A DNA stretch of 8,766 bases, from contig CABQOJ010000042.1 in the NCBI GenBank assembly GCA_902465775.1, positions 1-8,766 on the forward strand, written 5' to 3'. Origin of the DNA: an uncultured Porphyromonas sp. Lineage in GTDB: Bacteria; Bacteroidota; Bacteroidia; Bacteroidales; Porphyromonadaceae. Of this stretch, positions 471 through 8,766 are shown piece by piece. The notes under the pieces are model-generated. The model had not been told where the DNA came from. It made no database searches and worked only from the letters and a program-made list of their open reading frames with translations. Each line of letters starts with the position of its first letter. The stretch's first letter is position 1. Position numbers and translations under genes: made by a program.

Positions 471-1835
471 ATGAATAAAACCTTAACTTCTCTTCTCACA
501 GCGACACTTCTAGTCGTCACTCTCCTACAGCTCGTGTCCTGTAGCAACAAAGTCCCAACGGCCGACGATGCTAAGTATCTGCCAGAGTTTCATGACACCT
601 ACTTCGGAGGTGTCTCTGATATGCTCTCGTCTAATGAGCTAACGCTCTATGTAGACTACTCTACTTGTATAGCACTCGGGCAGGAGGCTCCCTTCTTTCA
701 GGCACTCGTCCCCTCATGGACCAATGCTGCAAAAAGATTCTTTGCCATCAAGGGTAGCTCCATCGAAGAGCACTCGGCAGACTCCACCTTCCTCCTGCTA
801 CGCAATGTCAGTGAGGTCAACTATGCAGACATCAAGACAGCAGCAGAGCGCATCACAGCTGGCTCTACAGAGGCTGTACTCCTGACTGACGGAGAGTACT
901 TTCAGCCATCTGAAGCTAAGGGGAATATCAACAACCCCTACTTAGCAGAAGCCTTTAAGACGTGGCTCAAGAAGGGGCACGACATCTACATCTTTGCAGA
1001 GCCATACGAGGAGCTATACAAAGGTGACACTTACCAGAAGAAGAGATTTTACTTCATCTTCACAGACAGCAGGCTGACAGGCAATATCTATGAGCGGATC
1101 ATACAGACTGTGGATCTGAAGCAATTTCCCAACGTGAGTCTATTCCATCTCTCTGCTGACCATCCTACTCTATATACGGCTGATGGTCGCGCCACAACTC
1201 CACACTCCACGCTCAATGCAAAGGTGACACCTGGAGCCAATGGGTACTATGAGATACAAGACTGGGAGATAGACTGGAAGAGTGGCATCGAGCCCCTACT
1301 AGTCAATGCTACAGATCCAGAAACTGGAGAGCCACTACCATCTGGAGAGCCCTTTACATCTGGTCTCAAAGTGGACAAAGGTAGCTTCGGTGGGTATCGT
1401 ATCACAGGCGTCTCTGCCAAAGTGTACAATATCAATCAGGAGTACACTGACTTCTACACAAACAAGGAGGCTAAGGTAGCACCTGCCAAGCAAATTACCC
1501 CCGCTGAGTGCGATAACTTTGTTGAGATCGATAACAAAGCATGGCAGAAGGATGGCGTCATCAACCTGCACTTTAATACAGAGTACTACGACCCCGCCTC
1601 TGTCCTAAATGGTAGCCCGTTTAACTACTTCAAGATTGACCTATGCGTTGCCGAGGTACAGCCAGACGTAGAGCAGTATCAGAACAAGCTCTCTTTCGAC
1701 AGTATCGACATGCCAGGCAATCAAAACGTCTCTGTCGTATCAAGCATACAGCAAAGTCTAGCGGACCCCGACATCATGAACAAGATGAACTCGTGCGTCA
1801 TCTACTCAATCTATGTCAAAGCAAACCAACGATAA
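471..1835 (+). CDS. Lipoprotein with divergent vWA-like domain (454 aa)
   Basis: A type II signal peptide is clear: Lys3, a hydrophobic stretch from about residue 5 to 22, and the lipobox L-V-S-C with the lipidated cysteine at residue 24. The residues just after the cysteine (S-N-K-V-P) lack the acidic surface-export signal common in Bacteroidota lipoproteins, so a periplasm-facing position is more likely (inference). Residues about 57-230 look like a vWA/Rossmann-type fold: a strand ending in D62-Y-S-T-C66 sits where the metal-site DxSxS motif is expected, and the strand with L-L-T-D140-G-E matches the later metal-site aspartate loop. C66 replaces the last serine of DxSxS, so metal binding may be altered. 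Residues about 235-454 look beta-rich and are unrecognised. It is the first gene of the operon, 22 bp before the next start. Gene call is firm; the vWA assignment is moderate. Confidence 0.9.
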   Translation: MNKTLTSLLTATLLVVTLLQLVSCSNKVPTADDAKYLPEFHDTYFGGVSDMLSSNELTLYVDYSTCIALGQEAPFFQALVPSWTNAAKRFFAIKGSSIEEHSADSTFLLLRNVSEVNYADIKTAAERITAGSTEAVLLTDGEYFQPSEAKGNINNPYLAEAFKTWLKKGHDIYIFAEPYEELYKGDTYQKKRFYFIFTDSRLTGNIYERIIQTVDLKQFPNVSLFHLSADHPTLYTADGRATTPHSTLNAKVTPGANGYYEIQDWEIDWKSGIEPLLVNATDPETGEPLPSGEPFTSGLKVDKGSFGGYRITGVSAKVYNINQEYTDFYTNKEAKVAPAKQITPAECDNFVEIDNKAWQKDGVINLHFNTEYYDPASVLNGSPFNYFKIDLCVAEVQPDVEQYQNKLSFDSIDMPGNQNVSVVSSIQQSLADPDIMNKMNSCVIYSIYVKANQR

Positions 1836-1857
1836 ACATCAAACAACATAAACTACT

Positions 1858-2247
1858 ATGACACCTATCACTAATGTCAATCAGCTCAACCAACTAATGA
1901 GCAGTACCATGATTTATGCCGTCGTGGTAAGTCTTATCGCCTTAGCTATAGCCTGGGTCATCACAAGCTATATGATCCCCTGGGAGGGAGGCAATGATCG
2001 CTCTTACATCAAGCGTCGCATAGTCTACATCGTCGTCGGGCTCCTAGCGGTGCTAGGCTTCTGGCTCTACAATGACCTCGCAGTAATGGGGTACATCAAG
2101 AACTCCGGCCTGAAAAACATGTTTGCTGCATGCAACTTGAAGTGTGTGGGCATTAACCTCGGCATCTATCTAGTCGCAGGTGTAGCGCTCATGTTCACCT
2201 TCCGTCGCTCTAAGTTTGGCTCCATCCTTGGTAAGGAAAAGAAATAA
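1858..2247 (+). CDS. Small three-helix inner-membrane protein (129 aa)
   Basis: Three hydrophobic segments are visible at about residues 19-39, 55-72 and 98-114. The positive-inside rule gives a consistent topology: N-terminus in the periplasm, first loop cytoplasmic (R-S-Y-I-K-R-R near 48-54), second loop periplasmic, and a lysine/arginine-rich C-terminal tail (from F-R-R-S-K at 115, ending G-K-E-K-K) in the cytoplasm. The periplasmic loop holds two cysteines, C92 and C96, spaced C-x3-C just before the third helix, which could form a disulfide. I recognise no family. Its place between a lipoprotein gene and a tubulin-like gene suggests it anchors the cytoplasmic filament proteins or links them to the lipoprotein. 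The start ATG is 22 bp after the previous stop, with an A-rich leader and no Shine-Dalgarno sequence. Confidence 0.88.
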   Translation: MTPITNVNQLNQLMSSTMIYAVVVSLIALAIAWVITSYMIPWEGGNDRSYIKRRIVYIVVGLLAVLGFWLYNDLAVMGYIKNSGLKNMFAACNLKCVGINLGIYLVAGVALMFTFRRSKFGSILGKEKK

Positions 2248-2261
2248 CAGACACTATAGCT

Positions 2262-3878
2262 ATGAATGAATTCTTTGTATTAGGTATCGGAGGTACAGGA
2301 ATGCGCTGTATCGAATCCTTGATTCACCTCTGTGCGATAGGCATGTTTGACAATACTGTAATACATCTCCTCGCACTAGATACGGATAAAAACAATGGTA
2401 ACTTCTCTAGACTCAAAGAGCTCAAAGAGGCATACTGCAATGCCAAGGGAGCTGATGAGGCCAATCGAGTTGCCCTTGAGAACACTTTCTTCTCAGCCAA
2501 CTTGAAGTACTACGAGTTTAGCCCCGACTACGAAAAGAAGAGCACCTTTAGAGCGGTCTTTGGATATGGCGATACACGCGATCACAATTACGAGGAGGCT
2601 GATCTAGCAAATCTCGTCTTCTCTGAAAATGTCCAGGAATTCAACCTGCTTCATGGCTATCGAGCTCAGACGCACCTCGGCTCTATGATGATGTATCACT
2701 CCATCATAGAGGCAGCCAAGTCTCCTCGGGACAACGACCTAAAGCGCTTCTTGAGCAAGCTGACTACGGCTTCTCAAAATGGACAGCCCCGAGTCTTCAT
2801 CCTAGGCTCTGTTTTTGGAGGTACTGGAGCCTCATCCATCCCCATCATCCCTCAGGCCATCTCGCAAGCTGCTGGGATCATAAGTAATGGTGTCGCCAAT
2901 GTACTGAGTAATGCATACTTTGGATCTACGCTACTGACAGCTTACTTCACCTTCAAGGCTCCAAATAGCAATGAGCTCAGCAATCAAAAAGTCATCGCGA
3001 CGAGTGATAAGTTTGCTCTGAACTCGCAAGTGGCCATGATGTTTTACAATGATGACAAGACAGTAGCAAGCACCTATCAGAAGTTCTATATGCTCGGCAC
3101 AAGGGGCTTGGACTGGGATCCTATGCAGAAGCAGTCAGACCAAATCACTGCGACCATCACGGGTGGAGAGCAGCAGAAGAATGACTCGCACTACATAGAG
3201 TTACTAGCGGCTTGCGCTGCTCTCAACTTCTATAGGATGGATGAAAGCCAGCTCAAGGACAACAAGGCTCAGAATCATACAGACTACCTCTATCGAGCCG
3301 TAGATGAGAGTGACAAGCTAGACTTCCAAGACTTCGTAGGCAAGGATCGAGCTAAGGAGTTTGCTCAGAAGTTTGGCAGTCTCATCGCCTTCGCTCTCTT
3401 TTGCAATGGAGAGGATGACTTCATCGAGAGTGTACGCGCTGGAAAACAGAAAGAGATAACAGAGTTTTCCGAGATGGATGTGACCCAAGTGACAAGTCTA
3501 CGTGACTACTTCAACTTATTCTTCGTCAAGCGAGACAACGACACCCTACAAGAAGGGTGGCTACGTCAGCTCCATAGATCTGCAGGTGGTGGTGACTCAT
3601 TTCTATTTAATGCAGCGCTATTCTCTCCATCAACCTATAAGGAGCTGATGAAGGTCAACTGGAATGAAGATCTCTATCGCACTGAGGGAATAGGCAAGGA
3701 TTATAAATATAGCAAGACAGGGATGCTCCTGGCTAAATCAAAGTTTGACCCCTTCAAGAAGAAGCTAATCGCAGTACGAGATAAGCAAAAAGACTGGGCC
3801 AAGATTACCAACAAAGGAGAGCAACTCTATAAGCTAGTGTTTGATACGCTTGCTGAGCTATATAACTTCAACAAATAA
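2262..3878 (+). CDS. Tubulin-like (FtsZ/tubulin superfamily) GTPase, 538 aa
   Basis: This is a member of the divergent 'tubulin-like' family (Pfam Tubulin_2 type, from memory). The N-terminus is a strand followed by the first GTP loop G8-I-G-G-T-G13, comparable to GxGGxG in FtsZ. A second strand ends in L-A-L-D40-T-D42-K-N-N, matching the FtsZ N-T-D region. The hallmark T4 loop is V-F-G-G-T-G-A at 184-190, the equivalent of GGGTGTG/A. The segment G-G-E-Q-Q-K-N-D-S-H followed by E-L-L-A-A (about 301-317) is typical of this family. I cannot place a canonical T7 catalytic loop, so GTP binding is well supported but hydrolysis is uncertain. Residues about 380-538 form a family-specific C-terminal region. 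No signal peptide or membrane helix: the protein is cytoplasmic. It lies 14 bp after the membrane-protein gene and likely polymerises at the membrane (inference). Confidence 0.9.
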   Translation: MNEFFVLGIGGTGMRCIESLIHLCAIGMFDNTVIHLLALDTDKNNGNFSRLKELKEAYCNAKGADEANRVALENTFFSANLKYYEFSPDYEKKSTFRAVFGYGDTRDHNYEEADLANLVFSENVQEFNLLHGYRAQTHLGSMMMYHSIIEAAKSPRDNDLKRFLSKLTTASQNGQPRVFILGSVFGGTGASSIPIIPQAISQAAGIISNGVANVLSNAYFGSTLLTAYFTFKAPNSNELSNQKVIATSDKFALNSQVAMMFYNDDKTVASTYQKFYMLGTRGLDWDPMQKQSDQITATITGGEQQKNDSHYIELLAACAALNFYRMDESQLKDNKAQNHTDYLYRAVDESDKLDFQDFVGKDRAKEFAQKFGSLIAFALFCNGEDDFIESVRAGKQKEITEFSEMDVTQVTSLRDYFNLFFVKRDNDTLQEGWLRQLHRSAGGGDSFLFNAALFSPSTYKELMKVNWNEDLYRTEGIGKDYKYSKTGMLLAKSKFDPFKKKLIAVRDKQKDWAKITNKGEQLYKLVFDTLAELYNFNK

Positions 3879-3903
3879 GTCAATTGACACAACGGATACA
3901 ACT

Positions 3904-6900
3904 ATGTCTAAAGCACTACTGATAAAGAGTGATACCAACGTAACGACAGGCACCCCTGGGCAATGGAACGAGCTCAATATGCCCGACTCGTACATTCAAG
4001 GTATCGAAACAGGTAAAATCCTTGATGACCTCACGGCGGACAAATTAAATGCAATAATCTCTGGAATCCCCACGCCATGGGCTCGTGCCAAGCTTTTTAA
4101 GTTTGCACTAAGCACACTCGATTCTTCCAATTCAAATACTAGTAGATCGGGACTAGAGCAACTCTATAAAATGCTGTGTGATGAGTGGAAGGGGCTACTG
4201 GCTGTCATCGCTCTATACCCTGACAGAATCCGCTTTTCTGATCCTATCAAGATGGATGTCAGTGGCCAGGCTTATGGCATTGCGTCAGCCTTCGGTCGTA
4301 TGCTTTTTGACGACAAAGACCTTTGGTGCAATCAAGACAAGCTAGCACAAGAGCCTGACACGCAGCCTTTCATCCAGCTGATTTACTATCGCGATTGTTT
4401 GGTCGGAGGTACATCTCCTATGACGGGCGTATTCACTGGTGTGGAGTATGACAATCTACCTGAGACTACTGACATACGCTGGTATCGAAATGGACGATTT
4501 GAAGACCCTACTCCCTATCTATCGCCAGACCATCTGCAGAAGCTATATCTCTTTGTCAAGAACCTCAACAGTAATCTGAAAGCCTTCGAAGAGAAAATCA
4601 ACTCGCAGCGTGGAAATAAGAAAGAAGAGGACATTGAAGGGTTTAAAACGATGATTCGTCGCTGGAAAGATGAGCTACTTCAGAAAGGCACTGACCTGAG
4701 GGATAGAGGTCCTGTAGCCCCCTACTCCAATCTAGAGTGCCCATTTTCTTTGCTTTTTGAGAGCGATGTGCCTGTTTATCTGAAGCTGGACGACTACACC
4801 TTTACCTATACAAATGAAGGCATCGGTGAGTACAAACTTATCGGGGATATCCAAAAGCTACTTAGCGATGATAAGTTTGTCATCGGCTGGGTGGAAGATG
4901 AAGATGCCCGCCCTAAGCTGTCCGAAGCGCCCGTCTTCTACTTAAAGACGAGAGACTTACAGTCTAAGAAGAATTACTACTTCACGATCCCCCTATCAGA
5001 GTCAGGAGTAGATGTCTTTAAGAACGATCTCTCAGGGATGCTTGGCTATAATAACTCTGACAACGTAAATCTCTCTGGTGTAATCACTGACTCAGGACAA
5101 CTAGCTGCGACACTCTCCGTCAAGGTAGATGGGCAGAGAGTCACACTCAACACGCGAGAGTACGCCATTCACTGGATGACAGATCTTGGGAAGGTTATCA
5201 TGTGGCCCAACTTCGTCTCAGAAAACTGGAACAAGTACTACCTCTACTCCGAGTTTACCTCTGATGCACAGGAGCTGTTTGAACCGATCTTCAAGGTCCA
5301 GAATCAATTCATCAAGACTATCAAGGGGGCTTTCTGGACAGGAGATTATCAAGCAGAGGTAGACGAGCCTAAGCAAGTAGATATCAAGAAGCTCATCACC
5401 TACCCAGCTGGAGAAGGTGAGGATCTACATAAGTACAACATTATCTCTTCGGATAAGCCTCTAGGTGGTATGGTCGCATACGTCAAGGATATGGGTAAAC
5501 CACGACACGCCGGGTTCCTCATATTCCGTCCTCAGGTAGTTGAGGATCGCACTTCGCTATCCATACAGACGGAGGCTGTAGTAGGCTTTGACTTCGGGAG
5601 CAATAACTCTTGTGTTTTCTACAATGAAGAAAACAGAGAGCCCGCTCCTATACAGTTTGAGAACTACCGTCTAGTACTTGTAGGCAAGGAAAACAGTAAC
5701 CTACAAGCGGTAGCCGAAAACAATGAACTGCTATTCTTCTCGAACTACCCTGCGCTCAATGGCCAACTCAAGTCTTGGCTACACGAGCAAGACACTAGAT
5801 ACAACACCTACAACCAAGACTTAGAGATCGCTGGTGGTGTACCAGTCAACCGTCCCAACGTATTGGTTCGCAAGATGGATCGCTTTGTCATCACCACGCA
5901 AGCTGGCACCCTGCACTATAATATGAAGTGGCTCAGTGGAGACAAGGGACTTGAAAAGAAGAAAGCCTTCCTCAAGACCATCTGGCTACAAGCTTGCGCT
6001 TATCTCTACAAAAACAGAATTCATCCAGCCAAGCTAGTTTGGAGCTATCCTGGCTCTATGATGCCAGCTGACTGCTCTGAGTTAGATCGCATCTATGCTG
6101 AGTTAGTCAAGCTAACGCCTATATCAAATTCTGGTAAGACGACTGTGCTGAGCGACCGACCTACTACAGAGGCTGAGGCTGTCTGCAGCTTTGCCTTATC
6201 ACAGGATTTCGGACTCAATGCAAACAATCTCTTCCTAGGCATTGACGTAGGAGGTAGTACCAGCGATATCCTGATCCTAGGCAAAGACCCTAAAAACGGC
6301 AATAGGTCCGCACTCCTGAGAGAGAGCTCGGTGCGGATGGCTGCTGGTGTCTTCTTTAATACGGTTATCAAGTCCCAAGCGTTTAGAGAAGCGCTTATAG
6401 CCTTCCACGAGGGGAGGCGGACGAACGTCTATGTAAGCAATATTAAGGAGCTTCAGCAAGAGCCGTCGAAGGCTCCTTACTTCCTCAATAGTATCTTTGA
6501 TCAGCTACAAACTAGCGAGGAGTACGATGAGTTCTATAGCTCGATAAACAACAACGCCAAGTCTGTCTTCACGATACCAGCTTATGTGACAGGTCTACTG
6601 CTCTTCTACTCTGGTATGCTAATCGGTAAGACGATCAAGACTGAGCAACTAGACGAAGTCAAAAGAGTTGATATACTCTCCTTTGGCAAGGGTGGACGTC
6701 TCTTCCATTGGTTGAAGAACTCTGCAGGTAGTAGATCTACAAATGATTACTACCAAACCTGTCTCAACGCAGGTGTTAGCTGCGTTATAGACAAGGAGCT
6801 AGAGGTGTGCTATAGAGAGGAGATTGCTGTAGACAACAAAGCCGAAGTGGCAAAAGGTCTCGTCAATCCAAAGGAGCTCCACAAAAAGGAGCAAGGAGCA

Positions 6901-7290
6901 TCCTCCGACATCTGTGGAGAGGCAGACGTCAGGTACACCATGGAGGATGGAAGCATACGTCAGCTACTTGTAGATGATGAGCTAACGGGAGAGTATTTTG
7001 CCAATGAGATGAACAACTTCACATTCCAAAGCGTTCCAAACTTTGAGAAGTTCATGAACATCTTCATTGACTTCGTCTGCCAAAAGACACACTTGTATCC
7101 GGAGGCTGATAAGCTACGTGAAGATCTAGCAGACCTCCCCAACAGGATCGCCAGCTTCATCTGCAACTCTGATGATGAGTACAAAAAGGCACGCAATAGT
7201 CAGCGTGACGGATTTCACTATCACCAGCCACTCATCATCGCAGAGGGCGCTTGCTTCTTAGAAACGCTTATCAAGCGGGTGTTTAACTAA
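3904..7290 (+). CDS. Large actin/Hsp70-fold (ASKHA) ATPase with unknown N-terminal half (1128 aa)
   Basis: The C-terminal half carries the full set of ASKHA landmarks. Phosphate-1 loop: V-V-G-F-D563-F-G-S-N-N-S-C. A strand with V-W-S-Y-P-G-S (about 715-725) stands where Hsp70 has V-P-A, and T-T-E-A-E-A-V (about 755-762) where Hsp70 has E-P-T-A-A. Phosphate-2 loop: L-G-I-D781-V-G-G-S-T-S-D. Adenosine-type loop: D-I-L-S-F-G928-K-G-G-R. ATP binding is therefore likely. The first about 555 residues match nothing I know; a helical segment D93-E-W-K-G-L-L-A is the most family-like stretch. I chose the ATG at 3904: an in-frame TTG at 3841 would add 21 residues but overlaps the upstream gene by 38 bp. 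There is no signal peptide or membrane helix. The gap to the upstream gene is 25 bp. It is about twice the length of DnaK because of the N-terminal half. Partner role with the tubulin-like protein is inferred. Confidence 0.9.
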   Translation: MSKALLIKSDTNVTTGTPGQWNELNMPDSYIQGIETGKILDDLTADKLNAIISGIPTPWARAKLFKFALSTLDSSNSNTSRSGLEQLYKMLCDEWKGLLAVIALYPDRIRFSDPIKMDVSGQAYGIASAFGRMLFDDKDLWCNQDKLAQEPDTQPFIQLIYYRDCLVGGTSPMTGVFTGVEYDNLPETTDIRWYRNGRFEDPTPYLSPDHLQKLYLFVKNLNSNLKAFEEKINSQRGNKKEEDIEGFKTMIRRWKDELLQKGTDLRDRGPVAPYSNLECPFSLLFESDVPVYLKLDDYTFTYTNEGIGEYKLIGDIQKLLSDDKFVIGWVEDEDARPKLSEAPVFYLKTRDLQSKKNYYFTIPLSESGVDVFKNDLSGMLGYNNSDNVNLSGVITDSGQLAATLSVKVDGQRVTLNTREYAIHWMTDLGKVIMWPNFVSENWNKYYLYSEFTSDAQELFEPIFKVQNQFIKTIKGAFWTGDYQAEVDEPKQVDIKKLITYPAGEGEDLHKYNIISSDKPLGGMVAYVKDMGKPRHAGFLIFRPQVVEDRTSLSIQTEAVVGFDFGSNNSCVFYNEENREPAPIQFENYRLVLVGKENSNLQAVAENNELLFFSNYPALNGQLKSWLHEQDTRYNTYNQDLEIAGGVPVNRPNVLVRKMDRFVITTQAGTLHYNMKWLSGDKGLEKKKAFLKTIWLQACAYLYKNRIHPAKLVWSYPGSMMPADCSELDRIYAELVKLTPISNSGKTTVLSDRPTTEAEAVCSFALSQDFGLNANNLFLGIDVGGSTSDILILGKDPKNGNRSALLRESSVRMAAGVFFNTVIKSQAFREALIAFHEGRRTNVYVSNIKELQQEPSKAPYFLNSIFDQLQTSEEYDEFYSSINNNAKSVFTIPAYVTGLLLFYSGMLIGKTIKTEQLDEVKRVDILSFGKGGRLFHWLKNSAGSRSTNDYYQTCLNAGVSCVIDKELEVCYREEIAVDNKAEVAKGLVNPKELHKKEQGASSDICGEADVRYTMEDGSIRQLLVDDELTGEYFANEMNNFTFQSVPNFEKFMNIFIDFVCQKTHLYPEADKLREDLADLPNRIASFICNSDDEYKKARNSQRDGFHYHQPLIIAEGACFLETLIKRVFN

Positions 7291-7298
7291 TACGATTA

Positions 7299-8766
7299 AT
7301 GACACAGTCTCTAGCACTATACATTGACAAGTATTACATCGTCGGAGCAACCATCTCCGACGGTGTAGCTCGTCGTGTGTTACCATCTAATAATGAGGAT
7401 CGCTTTTGGCTTTACTTCTATGAAGACACCGCTAGCGATAATATTATATACGGCAAGAGCTACAAGAAGGGTTGTCTTAGCAACCAGCTCCGCCATCACG
7501 GAGATGTGTTTGCTCACTTGACAGACAGAGAGTTTACATTCAAGCGATATGGTCGAGATCAAGAGTTGCGCAGGATCTTTAAGGCTGCAGGTATCGTAGA
7601 TGAGTTGAAAAATGCTCTAGACAGAGACGGTCTAGCCCCCATAGAGACCTACCTGTCCTTCTCTCAAGACATATCCGATGCGGCTCGCGTCACCTTCATT
7701 AACGACGTACTGCAACCAGAGGGCTTTGATGTCAAGGAGTCAGCCGCCCGCATCGGGCACCTCGCCTTAGAACAGAGCTTTAGAGATAAGCGATATGACC
7801 AAGACGGACACTATCTACTACTCAATGCCTGCAATGAGAATCTGCACTATGCTATCTACAAGCATACGGGAGACATTTTAATCAGAGTATTAGAGGGGTG
7901 CCTTGAGGGATTAGGTATCAACCTCACTAGTAGAGCGCTCTTAGAGCATGTCTTGAAGGAGATCAATGCGAGACAACTCATCATCGGTGAGGAAGATCGC
8001 AAGGCAGAGTATCTACACCTTGAGAGTTACGTAAGTGACTGGCTCGCGGAGCTACAAGCAGCACGACCTGGGCTACCCATTCAACTCCGCAATATCAAGC
8101 TCTCCAAGATGGGTAATAACTCCTATGATGTCATACTCCTCAAGCAAGACGTTGATGAGCGGTCTAGGGTCATCATTGAAGATATTATCCAGGAGATCAC
8201 CACCAGCATAGCACGTGGCAAGATTGATCCAAGTGATCTCAAGGGGGTGCTCTTCTTAGGCAATACCTTTGAGAACTCTCTATTTGAGCAGGCTCTGCTC
8301 AGGAAATACTCCTTTCCCTCTAAGGCTTGCATTCACTACACGGAGAGTGACCTCGTTTCAATAGTCGGGGTGTATCCGCTGATGGATTGTAGCCAGTTCT
8401 CCGAAGCGACACAGAGTACACTCGCTAGAGGCGAAGATGAGTTAAAGCGACAGCAACTAGCCAAGGAAGAAGCACAGCGAAAACTCGAAGCCGAGCAAAG
8501 TCGCTCTGAGCAAGCTGAAGCTGAGCGTAAAGCCTTTGAGACTAAGAAAAACTATGAGGAGGCTATGTACAATGTCTCCAACTATGAGAAGCAGGGAGAG
8601 TATGCACAGATGCTTGACTGGGCTAAAATAGCTCTAGAGCATCAACCCGACAGTGCTGAAGCCAAGAAAAAAGTTGAGGAGAGTACTCGTCTGCTCTCCG
8701 AGATGAAGGTTCGAGAGGAGCAGTACAAAGCCACTATGATGCGAGCTCAGAAGAGCTTTGGAGAGG
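7299..8766 (+). CDS. Degenerate Hsp70/actin-like protein with coiled coil and TPR-like segment, 3' end outside window
   Basis: The frame is open from the ATG at 7299 (8 bp after the previous stop) to the window edge, 489 codons seen. Its outline follows Hsp70: an N-terminal strand L-Y-I-D10-K-Y-Y-I-V-G in the phosphate-1 position; S-Q-D-I-S-D-A-A-R (about 122-130), F-D-V-K-E-S-A-A-R-I-G-H-L-A-L (143-157), like the Hsp70 P-A-Y-F-N-D-A-Q-R and N-E-P-T-A-A-A segments; a strand H-Y-L-L-L-N176-A-C-N-E-N (171-181) in the phosphate-2 position; and G-V-L-F-L-G-N-T-F-E-N (316-326) like the adenosine loop V-V-L-V-G-G-S-T-R. The glycine-rich phosphate loops and the phosphate-2 aspartate are lost, so I predict a pseudo-ATPase. 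A charged coiled coil spans about 372-416, and a TPR-like helix pair about 433-465. It ends the visible operon and probably scaffolds the other components. The fold call is by eye and moderate. Confidence 0.85.
   Translation, partial: MTQSLALYIDKYYIVGATISDGVARRVLPSNNEDRFWLYFYEDTASDNIIYGKSYKKGCLSNQLRHHGDVFAHLTDREFTFKRYGRDQELRRIFKAAGIVDELKNALDRDGLAPIETYLSFSQDISDAARVTFINDVLQPEGFDVKESAARIGHLALEQSFRDKRYDQDGHYLLLNACNENLHYAIYKHTGDILIRVLEGCLEGLGINLTSRALLEHVLKEINARQLIIGEEDRKAEYLHLESYVSDWLAELQAARPGLPIQLRNIKLSKMGNNSYDVILLKQDVDERSRVIIEDIIQEITTSIARGKIDPSDLKGVLFLGNTFENSLFEQALLRKYSFPSKACIHYTESDLVSIVGVYPLMDCSQFSEATQSTLARGEDELKRQQLAKEEAQRKLEAEQSRSEQAEAERKAFETKKNYEEAMYNVSNYEKQGEYAQMLDWAKIALEHQPDSAEAKKKVEESTRLLSEMKVREEQYKATMMRAQKSFGE

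Follow-up and report, generated by a model that had tools for sequence, protein, structure and literature searches.

FtsZ-like proteins of the FtsZl1 type were described by Makarova and Koonin in 2010 in operons with von Willebrand factor A (vWA) proteins, for which a role in membrane remodelling was proposed (PMC2875224), and have since stood as an orphan branch with that guess at their function; a 2023 paper equates these sequences with the Tubulin_2 proteins (PMC9871819). Tubulin, HSP70 and vWA proteins, some of them membrane-bound, also occur in the conflict systems of Kaur et al. 2020, which were proposed to form regulated assemblies near the membrane (PMC7159879), and Ter systems have been interpreted as structures beneath the membrane that keep phages and xenobiotics from entering (PMC7824862). 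Here, we analyze a window of 8766 nt (the whole stretch studied, from contig CABQOJ010000042.1 of an uncultured Porphyromonas sp., a gut/oral bacterium) with five co-directional genes on the + strand, g1 to g5. These genes form a patchily distributed, co-inherited unit, which in relatives runs on into genes for TerD-type proteins, a CW_7 wall anchor and often a Ca2+-ATPase. We give a little less than an even chance to the reading that g1 to g5 begin an accessory, Ter-coupled transenvelope stress or conflict system of Bacteroidales. The FtsZl1/vWA operons and the tubulin/HSP70 conflict systems are known; what is new is this arrangement.

471..1835, + strand: g1, lipoprotein with vWA-like motifs (open reading frame (ORF), 454 aa)
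1858..2247, + strand: g2, predicted three-helix membrane protein (ORF, 129 aa; hydropathy peaks)
2262..3878, + strand: g3, divergent member of the tubulin/FtsZ superfamily, FtsZl1/Tubulin_2-like (ORF, 538 aa)
3904..7290, + strand: g4, ASKHA-type protein (1128 aa; start set by homologues)
7299..8766, + strand: g5, N-domain (possibly a degenerate ASKHA domain), then coiled coil and tetratricopeptide repeats (TPRs) (ORF 7299-8765, 489 aa; the window end cuts the gene)

As in the FtsZl1/vWA operons, a single operon here combines a Tubulin_2-like tubulin with a vWA-like protein and membrane proteins, and the kinases found there have a counterpart in L150, a variant locus described below (PMC2875224). 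Unlike them, it has no TRAFAC GTPase among its five proteins, and its ASKHA pair, its Ter/CW_7/Ca2+-ATPase module and the co-variation of a tag within that module were not found in the portion of that account consulted (PMC2875224). The initial annotation was right to point to this paper, whose Figure 1 legend lists Bacteroides caccae. It overstated the rarity of the fold combination, since tubulin, HSP70 and vWA components have already been described in conflict systems (PMC7159879). Those systems are defined by a GTPase together with GAP1, and in section 29 of that work tubulin and HSP70 are non-overlapping themes, whereas tubulin and ASKHA genes adjoin here (PMC7159879). Neither a TRAFAC GTPase nor GAP1 was matched by Pfam or NCBIfam models in the five proteins at E ≤ 10 (later operon genes were partly scanned), and membership in a GTPase/GAP1 conflict system was therefore rejected. 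With Ter systems (TerB/TerD/TerF) the likeness lies in TerD, TerB-like units, a membrane part and the proposed sub-membrane structures that block phage or xenobiotics (PMC7824862), and the difference in a core of tubulin and ASKHA proteins, a membrane part that is a CW_7 wall anchor, and a linked Ca2+-ATPase. Zorya membership was also rejected: PADLOC found no Zor match in the window's five proteins, ZorA/B-like genes being present in three of eight loci of a sister set. The word tubulin is absent from the Zorya paper PMC11890865. Full-text literature searches, which covered few subscription papers and no bioRxiv preprints, listed no paper describing tubulin, ASKHA, TerD and CW_7 together. A survey of Ter systems published in 2012 by Anantharaman and colleagues may cover parts of the arrangement.

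The five ORFs reported by the initial annotation were recovered, with intergenic gaps of 22, 14, 25 and 8 nt from g1 to g5. These gaps count g4 from position 3904: its longest ORF spans 3841-7290 and opens at TTG, and we set the gene at 3904-7290 because aligned homologues start at or beside the Met of MSKALL. Homologues are numerous, with at least 1734 for g3 and at least 439 for g4 at E ≤ 0.001 among ~8000 scored candidates each, and g5 relatives measure 621–896 aa. The window is nearest to Porphyromonas: over its best segment, g3 shares 83% identity with the L002 protein (P. uenonis 60-3) and 84% with that of L001. The initial annotation had proposed tabulating gene neighborhoods over Bacteroidota, and we compared 33 loci, 29 of them from a contig scan with two g3 peptides, three (L103–L105) from whole-genome searches, and one viral contig (L117). 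Of the 31 loci whose sequence includes an ORF beyond g3, 28 have g4 after it (exceptions L026, L027 and L029). Among the 24 that include an ORF beyond g4, 19 keep the order g1-g2-g3-g4-g5, one of them being L028, whose g2 was verified in its correct reading frame. The five exceptions are L020–L023 and L025, and the g4 proteins of L020, L021, L023 and L025 are 38–40% identical. Given the conserved order and the numerous homologues, chance adjacency of the five genes was rejected.

Co-inheritance was evaluated across the order to which P. uenonis belongs (295 genomes). Ten of these genomes had strong g3 matches (E ≤ 1.1e-94; 19 at E ≤ 0.001), and strong g4 matches occurred in 9, all within the 10 with strong g3 (10 at E ≤ 0.001). 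g1 was detected in 10 genomes, namely 9 of the 10 g3-strong and 1 of the other 285, and the g5 N-domain in 14, 9 of them g3-strong. Among the 9 genomes with both g1 and g3, the two lay on separate contigs in 5 (G014, G020, G040, G230 and G259), and in G132 one g1/g3 pair was split across contigs and another lay together. Hypergeometric probabilities of co-occurrence with g3 were 2e-15 for g1, 2e-16 for g4 and 5e-13 for g5, values that ignore kinship among genomes, some of which are close (the g3 protein of G132 shares 98% identity with its counterpart in G230 and 91% with the one in G014). Among 120 Prevotella genomes, strong g3 was found in 4 (30 at E ≤ 0.001), and g1 and strong g4 were confined to the same 4 (g4 reaching 9 at E ≤ 0.001; p = 1e-7, kinship ignored); TerD-type genes occurred in those 4 and in 2 more. 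Distance matrices among g1–g5 correlated at r = 0.88–0.99 (15–16 loci), and those of the core with TerD and CW_7 at r = 0.61–0.79 (14–15 loci), so that g1–g5 constitute a tight core and Ter/CW_7 a looser module. The proposed multi-component Bacteroidota system, with its membrane component and its tubulin-family and ASKHA-type proteins, is thus both co-inherited and co-absent. That the genes form one functional system is much likelier than the specific mechanism considered below.

For the tubulin-family protein, the sequence landmark is a glycine loop.

2814..2837, + strand: T4-like glycine loop FGGTGASS of g3 (residues 185-192), invariant in 20/20

The only match for the five proteins in Pfam, NCBIfam and PADLOC scans was a weak one of g3 to Pfam Tubulin_2 (PF13809; E = 1.2e-4, 21.9 bits, below the cut-off of 27), and PF13809 is precomputed in many of 120 listed g3 homologues (65–77% identical). 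g3 carries GIGGTG and FGGTGASS; relative to the family loop GGGTG(S/T)G, the latter keeps the core GGTG and differs at the first and last positions. By these features g3 appears to be a divergent FtsZl1/Tubulin_2-like protein, shorter at 538 aa than the founding member of the FtsZl1 family at 1051 aa (PMC2875224). Plasmid and phage searches yielded no more than remote tubulin homologues, carried by 5 cyanobacterial plasmid records, and sequence comparison of g3, g1 and g4 with solved structures gave no credible match. In L026 and L027, a tubulin 44% identical to g3 lies downstream of a hybrid two-component regulator and has no adjoining g4.

The g4 assignment draws on three motifs, and the clearest part of g5 is its repeat region.

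5590..5607, + strand: g4 phosphate-1 motif DFGSNN (563-568), invariant in 17/17; aligns with DnaK phosphate-1
6238..6267, + strand: g4 phosphate-2 motif GIDVGGSTSD (779-788), invariant in 17/17; aligns with MreB phosphate-2, E = 0.013
6679..6705, + strand: g4 candidate adenosine motif SFGKGGRLF (926-934), F927-R932 and F934 invariant; role by analogy
8571..8684, + strand: first TPR region of g5 (about residues 425-462), matched at profile level by designed TPR proteins (E = 3.8e-8)

In g4, the motifs (DFGSNN, GIDVGGSTSD and FGKGGR, all invariant in 17/17 sequences) begin at residues 563, 779 and 926 (the last counted from the S of SFGKGGRLF), i.e., in the order phosphate-1, phosphate-2, adenosine-like that is also that of Hsp70. 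They fall in an ASKHA half that starts at about residue 555, residues 1 to ~550 matching nothing. No Pfam ASKHA model matched g4, and pairwise hhalign comparisons gave E = 5e-4 (probability 30%) against DnaK and 0.013 against MreB, with the sister family reaching 2e-4 against DnaK and 4.5e-5 against MreB (probability 69%, phosphate-2 aligned). Controls lay mostly at 0.13–0.78, two pairs with the g5 N-domain being lower (0.0072 for vWA, 0.021 for DnaK). We thus consider g4 an ASKHA protein by motif and, weakly, by profile. For g5, the TPRs are secure from sequence (TPR_14 was matched in 9/12 members), while the degenerate ASKHA domain and the pseudo-ATPase state proposed alongside them are unproven, the N-domain scoring at control level (DnaK 0.021, MreB 0.67).

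The two envelope proteins are less easily classified, beginning with the motifs of g1.

654..668, + strand: g1 MIDAS-like motif DYSTC (D62-C66), from alignment
885..896, + strand: g1 TDGE (residues 139-142), vWA loop-3-like, from alignment

The lipobox Cys24 of g1 and residues D62, S64, T139, D140 and E142 are invariant in 17/17 aligned sequences. The fifth residue of the MIDAS-like site is Cys, the distant relatives L025, L113 and L114 having DYSGS/DYSSS. In a wider set of 25 loci, the MIDAS-like pattern was unmatched in L007 and the TDGE-like loop was not found in L104 and L105. No vWA model matched g1, and against 12 vWA proteins hhalign gave E = 0.013 (probability 3%, TDG in register), a value that the unrelated control, the g5 N-domain, surpassed at 0.0072, so that a vWA fold is not established. 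The profile comparisons suggested by the initial annotation left the vWA fold of g1 and the ASKHA fold of g5 at control level; we regard g1 as vWA-like by motif only. Hydropathy places the hydrophobic segments of g2 at residues 17-35, 58-76 and 97-115.

The Ter/CW_7/Ca2+-ATPase module escaped the initial annotation, since in relatives it lies past the point where the window ends. In all 16 loci that continue past g5, a TerD-type gene, single or in two copies, precedes a CW_7 gene; L002 and L103 have an extra ORF before TerD, L010 a TerB-like gene between its two TerDs, and L005 a third TerD-type gene after CW_7. The slot after g5 is mostly filled by c0, a family of ~192 aa with TerD-like landmarks, and in other loci by clear TerD proteins over the Pfam cut-off (2.5e-16 in L013, from the type strain Phocaeicola sartorii DSM 21941; two each in L104 and L105, 1e-41 to 5e-45, one of which matched the solved TerD 2kxt/2kxv at 4e-25). 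TerD binds Ca2+ (PMC8123226, citing Pan et al. 2011). In the CW_7 proteins, a short cytosolic tail leads into one transmembrane segment, which is followed by low-complexity sequence and, at the C-terminus, the CW_7 repeat; PF08230 was matched at 5e-11 to 3e-14 in the six scanned by Pfam, the remainder being identified by a home-made model, and the CW_7 protein of L004 matched no solved structure. TerB-like units occur in five of the 16 long loci (L003, L010, L014, L103 and L105), with L003 at 24.6 bits passing the Pfam cut-off of 24.4 and the other four below it. In L105 (12498-14072), the cytosolic portion of a CW_7 membrane protein contains a fused pair of TerB-like units that are nearly identical. 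The P-type ATPase has as its best solved match the plasma-membrane Ca2+-ATPase (3e-134), and those checked carry PEGLP and, where complete, NLIMD. It was found in 13 of the 33 loci (three upstream of g1, ten downstream), including 11 of the 16 long ones. As no ORF ≥80 aa occupies the 470 nt preceding g1, the window itself has no pump on that side.

Within this module, the CW_7 protein repeats in its cytosolic tail the N-terminus of the TerD-type protein from the same locus, in three versions: LKKKVTLRxK-like in 13 loci, RFNLxKGERF-like in L104 and L105, and FxxxDFxK-like in L013 and the Ter locus L146. TerD N-termini were assigned to their own class from other loci alone in 17/17 cases, and permuting the pairing of tags gave p = 1e-5 for the 17 loci (1.3e-4 in a 16-locus run). 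Because the TerD start is copied onto the tail and the code is swapped in both together, the anchor would, in a broader idea weighed below, dock TerD, or a partner of TerD, by mimicry. The tag that co-varies between TerD and a wall-anchored membrane protein offers a concrete molecular hint at a possible tethering of Ter proteins. DFF repeats are found near the end of g5 in 10 of 13 LKKK-class loci and DFxF in two more (L014 and L103), neither being found there in L002, L013, L104 or L105. A charge swap between the g5 tail and the tag in L013 was a single case and was not used.

The core also occurs with other partners. A very distant sister set comprised eight loci (L106–L112 and L116), six from the 26 Prevotella genomes with weak g3, one a second P. 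jejuni copy (L111), and one from G186 (L116), P. jejuni thus carrying both systems. The sister order is lipoprotein C2, membrane protein C3, tubulin, ASKHA, with C3 in 7/8 loci and the others in 8/8. Profile comparison related the tubulins of the two systems at 3.5e-24, their ASKHA parts at 7.8e-14, and C2 to g1 at 5.5e-5 (probability 66%, signal peptide included). C3 and g2 had no profile similarity, and we therefore do not claim their homology. Three of the eight (L109, L111 and L116) continue with a ZorB-like and a ZorA/MotA-like family. The ZorB-like protein was matched by PADLOC in L111 (7e-14) and L109 (1e-11), the L116 copy being placed by relatedness, and a sister ZorB-like protein matched a solved MotB-related protein at 2.4e-5. 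The ZorA match (L111, 4e-7) covers the coiled-coil part only, the L116 counterpart is matched best by LeoBC (6e-8; ZorA 0.028), and the L109 copy was placed by relatedness. Through its ZorB-like parts, the sister system links this core to an anti-phage motor that is already known. Other sister loci encode a lipoprotein of the gag-asp-protease kind and membrane proteins with zinc ribbons. In L150 (G081:C8), a PP2C-motif gene comes after the core, with a Ser/Thr kinase on the other strand (8.6e-23 to solved kinases) and a 472-aa protein. L152 (G059) has a g5-like gene beside PP2C-motif and kinase-like genes, without tubulin.

From the observed parts, order, co-inheritance and tag co-variation, we infer a possible envelope-breach sensor that would use Ca2+ and the wall anchor to control assembly of the tubulin and ASKHA proteins, a mechanism whose chances we place just short of one in two. 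The core would consist of a periplasmic lipoprotein (g1), a membrane protein (g2), a tubulin-type GTPase (g3), an ASKHA ATPase (g4) and a TPR/pseudo-ASKHA adaptor (g5). Coupled to it would be a Ter module with Ca2+-binding TerD, sometimes TerB, a CW_7 protein with a single transmembrane segment, and often a plasma-membrane-type Ca2+-ATPase. The anchor would hold its peptidoglycan-binding domain outside and its TerD-like N-terminal tag inside. A breach (phage DNA entry, a pore former or wall damage) would let Ca2+ in; TerD would then change state and bind or leave the wall-anchored tag; g5 would relay the signal to the tubulin/ASKHA pair, which may assemble under the membrane at the site and seal it or block entry; and the Ca2+ pump would reset the system. 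Three considerations suggest this mechanism: CW_7 and MotB/ZorB-like proteins, two presumably wall-binding module types, attach to the same core; a Ca2+ pump stands beside TerD even without this core; and Ter systems have been read as blocking entry from beneath the membrane (PMC7824862). One FtsZl1 lineage is here tied to an ASKHA ATPase by gene order and co-absence, and to Ter proteins, a wall anchor and a Ca2+ pump by position, ties that lead to testable predictions on Ca2+, wall damage and phage entry.

Several points weigh against this sensor reading. The module lies outside the window, and for this genome it is taken from the closest compared relative that reaches so far, L002. TerD-type (A5) genes were detected in only 4 of the 295 genomes, 2 of them among the 10 g3-strong, and L020–L023 and L025 have g3-g4 without adjoining Ter genes, so that Ter coupling is not universal. 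None of six scanned c0 members had a Pfam TerD match, c0 matched no solved structure, and its similarity to the TerD profile reached only E = 5e-6 over 48 columns. Binding of CW_7 to peptidoglycan and the specificity of the pump are knowledge of the families, and P. jejuni has no Ca2+-ATPase in the 15 kb downstream. The tag classes were first drawn by eye, number only three and use tail lengths of our choosing; of 2000 shuffled tails, 139 reached the own-tag score for L104, 5 for L105 and none for L013. A broader idea, doubtful in our estimate, treats the tubulin-ASKHA pair as a general receiver beneath the membrane, with interchangeable, mostly wall-touching sensors and TerD-tag docking by mimicry. 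Its plug-ins would be the Ter/CW_7/Ca2+ pump set (type A loci), a ZorAB-like proton motor (some type B loci) and the kinase/PP2C pair of L150. If true, it would amount to a Ca2+-gated, peptidoglycan-tethered cytoskeletal alarm in bacteria.

A different explanation, which we consider rather unlikely, is an anti-phage conflict system, abortive or entry-blocking, of the GTPase/tubulin/HSP70 sort of Kaur et al. 2020, in which Ca2+ would be incidental. The patchy occurrence (4 of 120 Prevotella), a tyrosine integrase near g1 in 5/33 loci, the ZorA/B-like parts of the sister system, the kinase and PP2C-motif genes beside the core in L150, and the view of Ter systems as phage-entry blockers (PMC7824862) are all consistent with it. 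Yet no notable nuclease or toxin model was matched in the scanned operon proteins (flanking genes being only partly scanned), and the best PADLOC match of the five proteins was at E = 0.028, which counts against the Ter-coupled sensor as well. Moreover, Ter genes are accompanied by the Ca2+-ATPase where the tubulin core is missing: in two Prevotella Ter loci lacking strong g3, it lies within ~20 kb in G368 and G378 (46% and 52% identical).

General membrane remodelling or vesicle formation, as Makarova and Koonin proposed for the FtsZl1/vWA operons, would fit the closeness of g3 to the FtsZl1 family and the vWA-like lipoprotein and membrane genes around it, but it leaves TerD, TerB, CW_7 and the Ca2+ pump unexplained. 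The system is also absent from most sampled relatives, which argues against a housekeeping role, and we regard this explanation as improbable. Slightly more remote still is a metal/oxyanion (tellurite) or oxidative-stress resistance operon related to classical ter, to which the presence of the TerD and TerB families points, together with the C15 family that type A loci have in common with the Ter loci of G368 and G378 and the CW_7 and C16 families shared with that of G368. The vWA genes of DTSGSM type in the G368 and G378 Ter loci are not, however, found in type A loci: among ORFs ≥90 aa of the 33 loci plus L138 and L139, the DTSGSM pattern had one stray match, in an integrase. These Ter loci (L146, L147, L156 and L157, from G368 and G378) are large, with several TerD-like genes and three or four vWA-like ones in which DTSGSM-like sites were read by eye.

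The tyrosine integrase lies immediately 5' of g1 in L012, L013, L015 and L117, and one ORF off in L103. L117 is the only IMG/VR match; its operon comes right after the integrase, with a relaxase-looking gene further upstream (by eye), and since this single integrase-bearing locus may be an integrative element, a phage gene set was rejected. L007 and L011 are metagenome-assembled genomes labelled Eubacteriales and Clostridia, with the operon at 71% and 65% identity, and are probably mis-binned Bacteroidales contigs. tRNA and Rfam searches of the window returned none. In the gene-free stretch 5' of g1, positions 87-122 hold a terminator-like inverted repeat with 12-nt arms (92% complementary), and at the very start of the window, positions 1-55, a 13-nt sequence (AAAGTTCGGAAGA-like) is present in three copies at 21-nt spacing.

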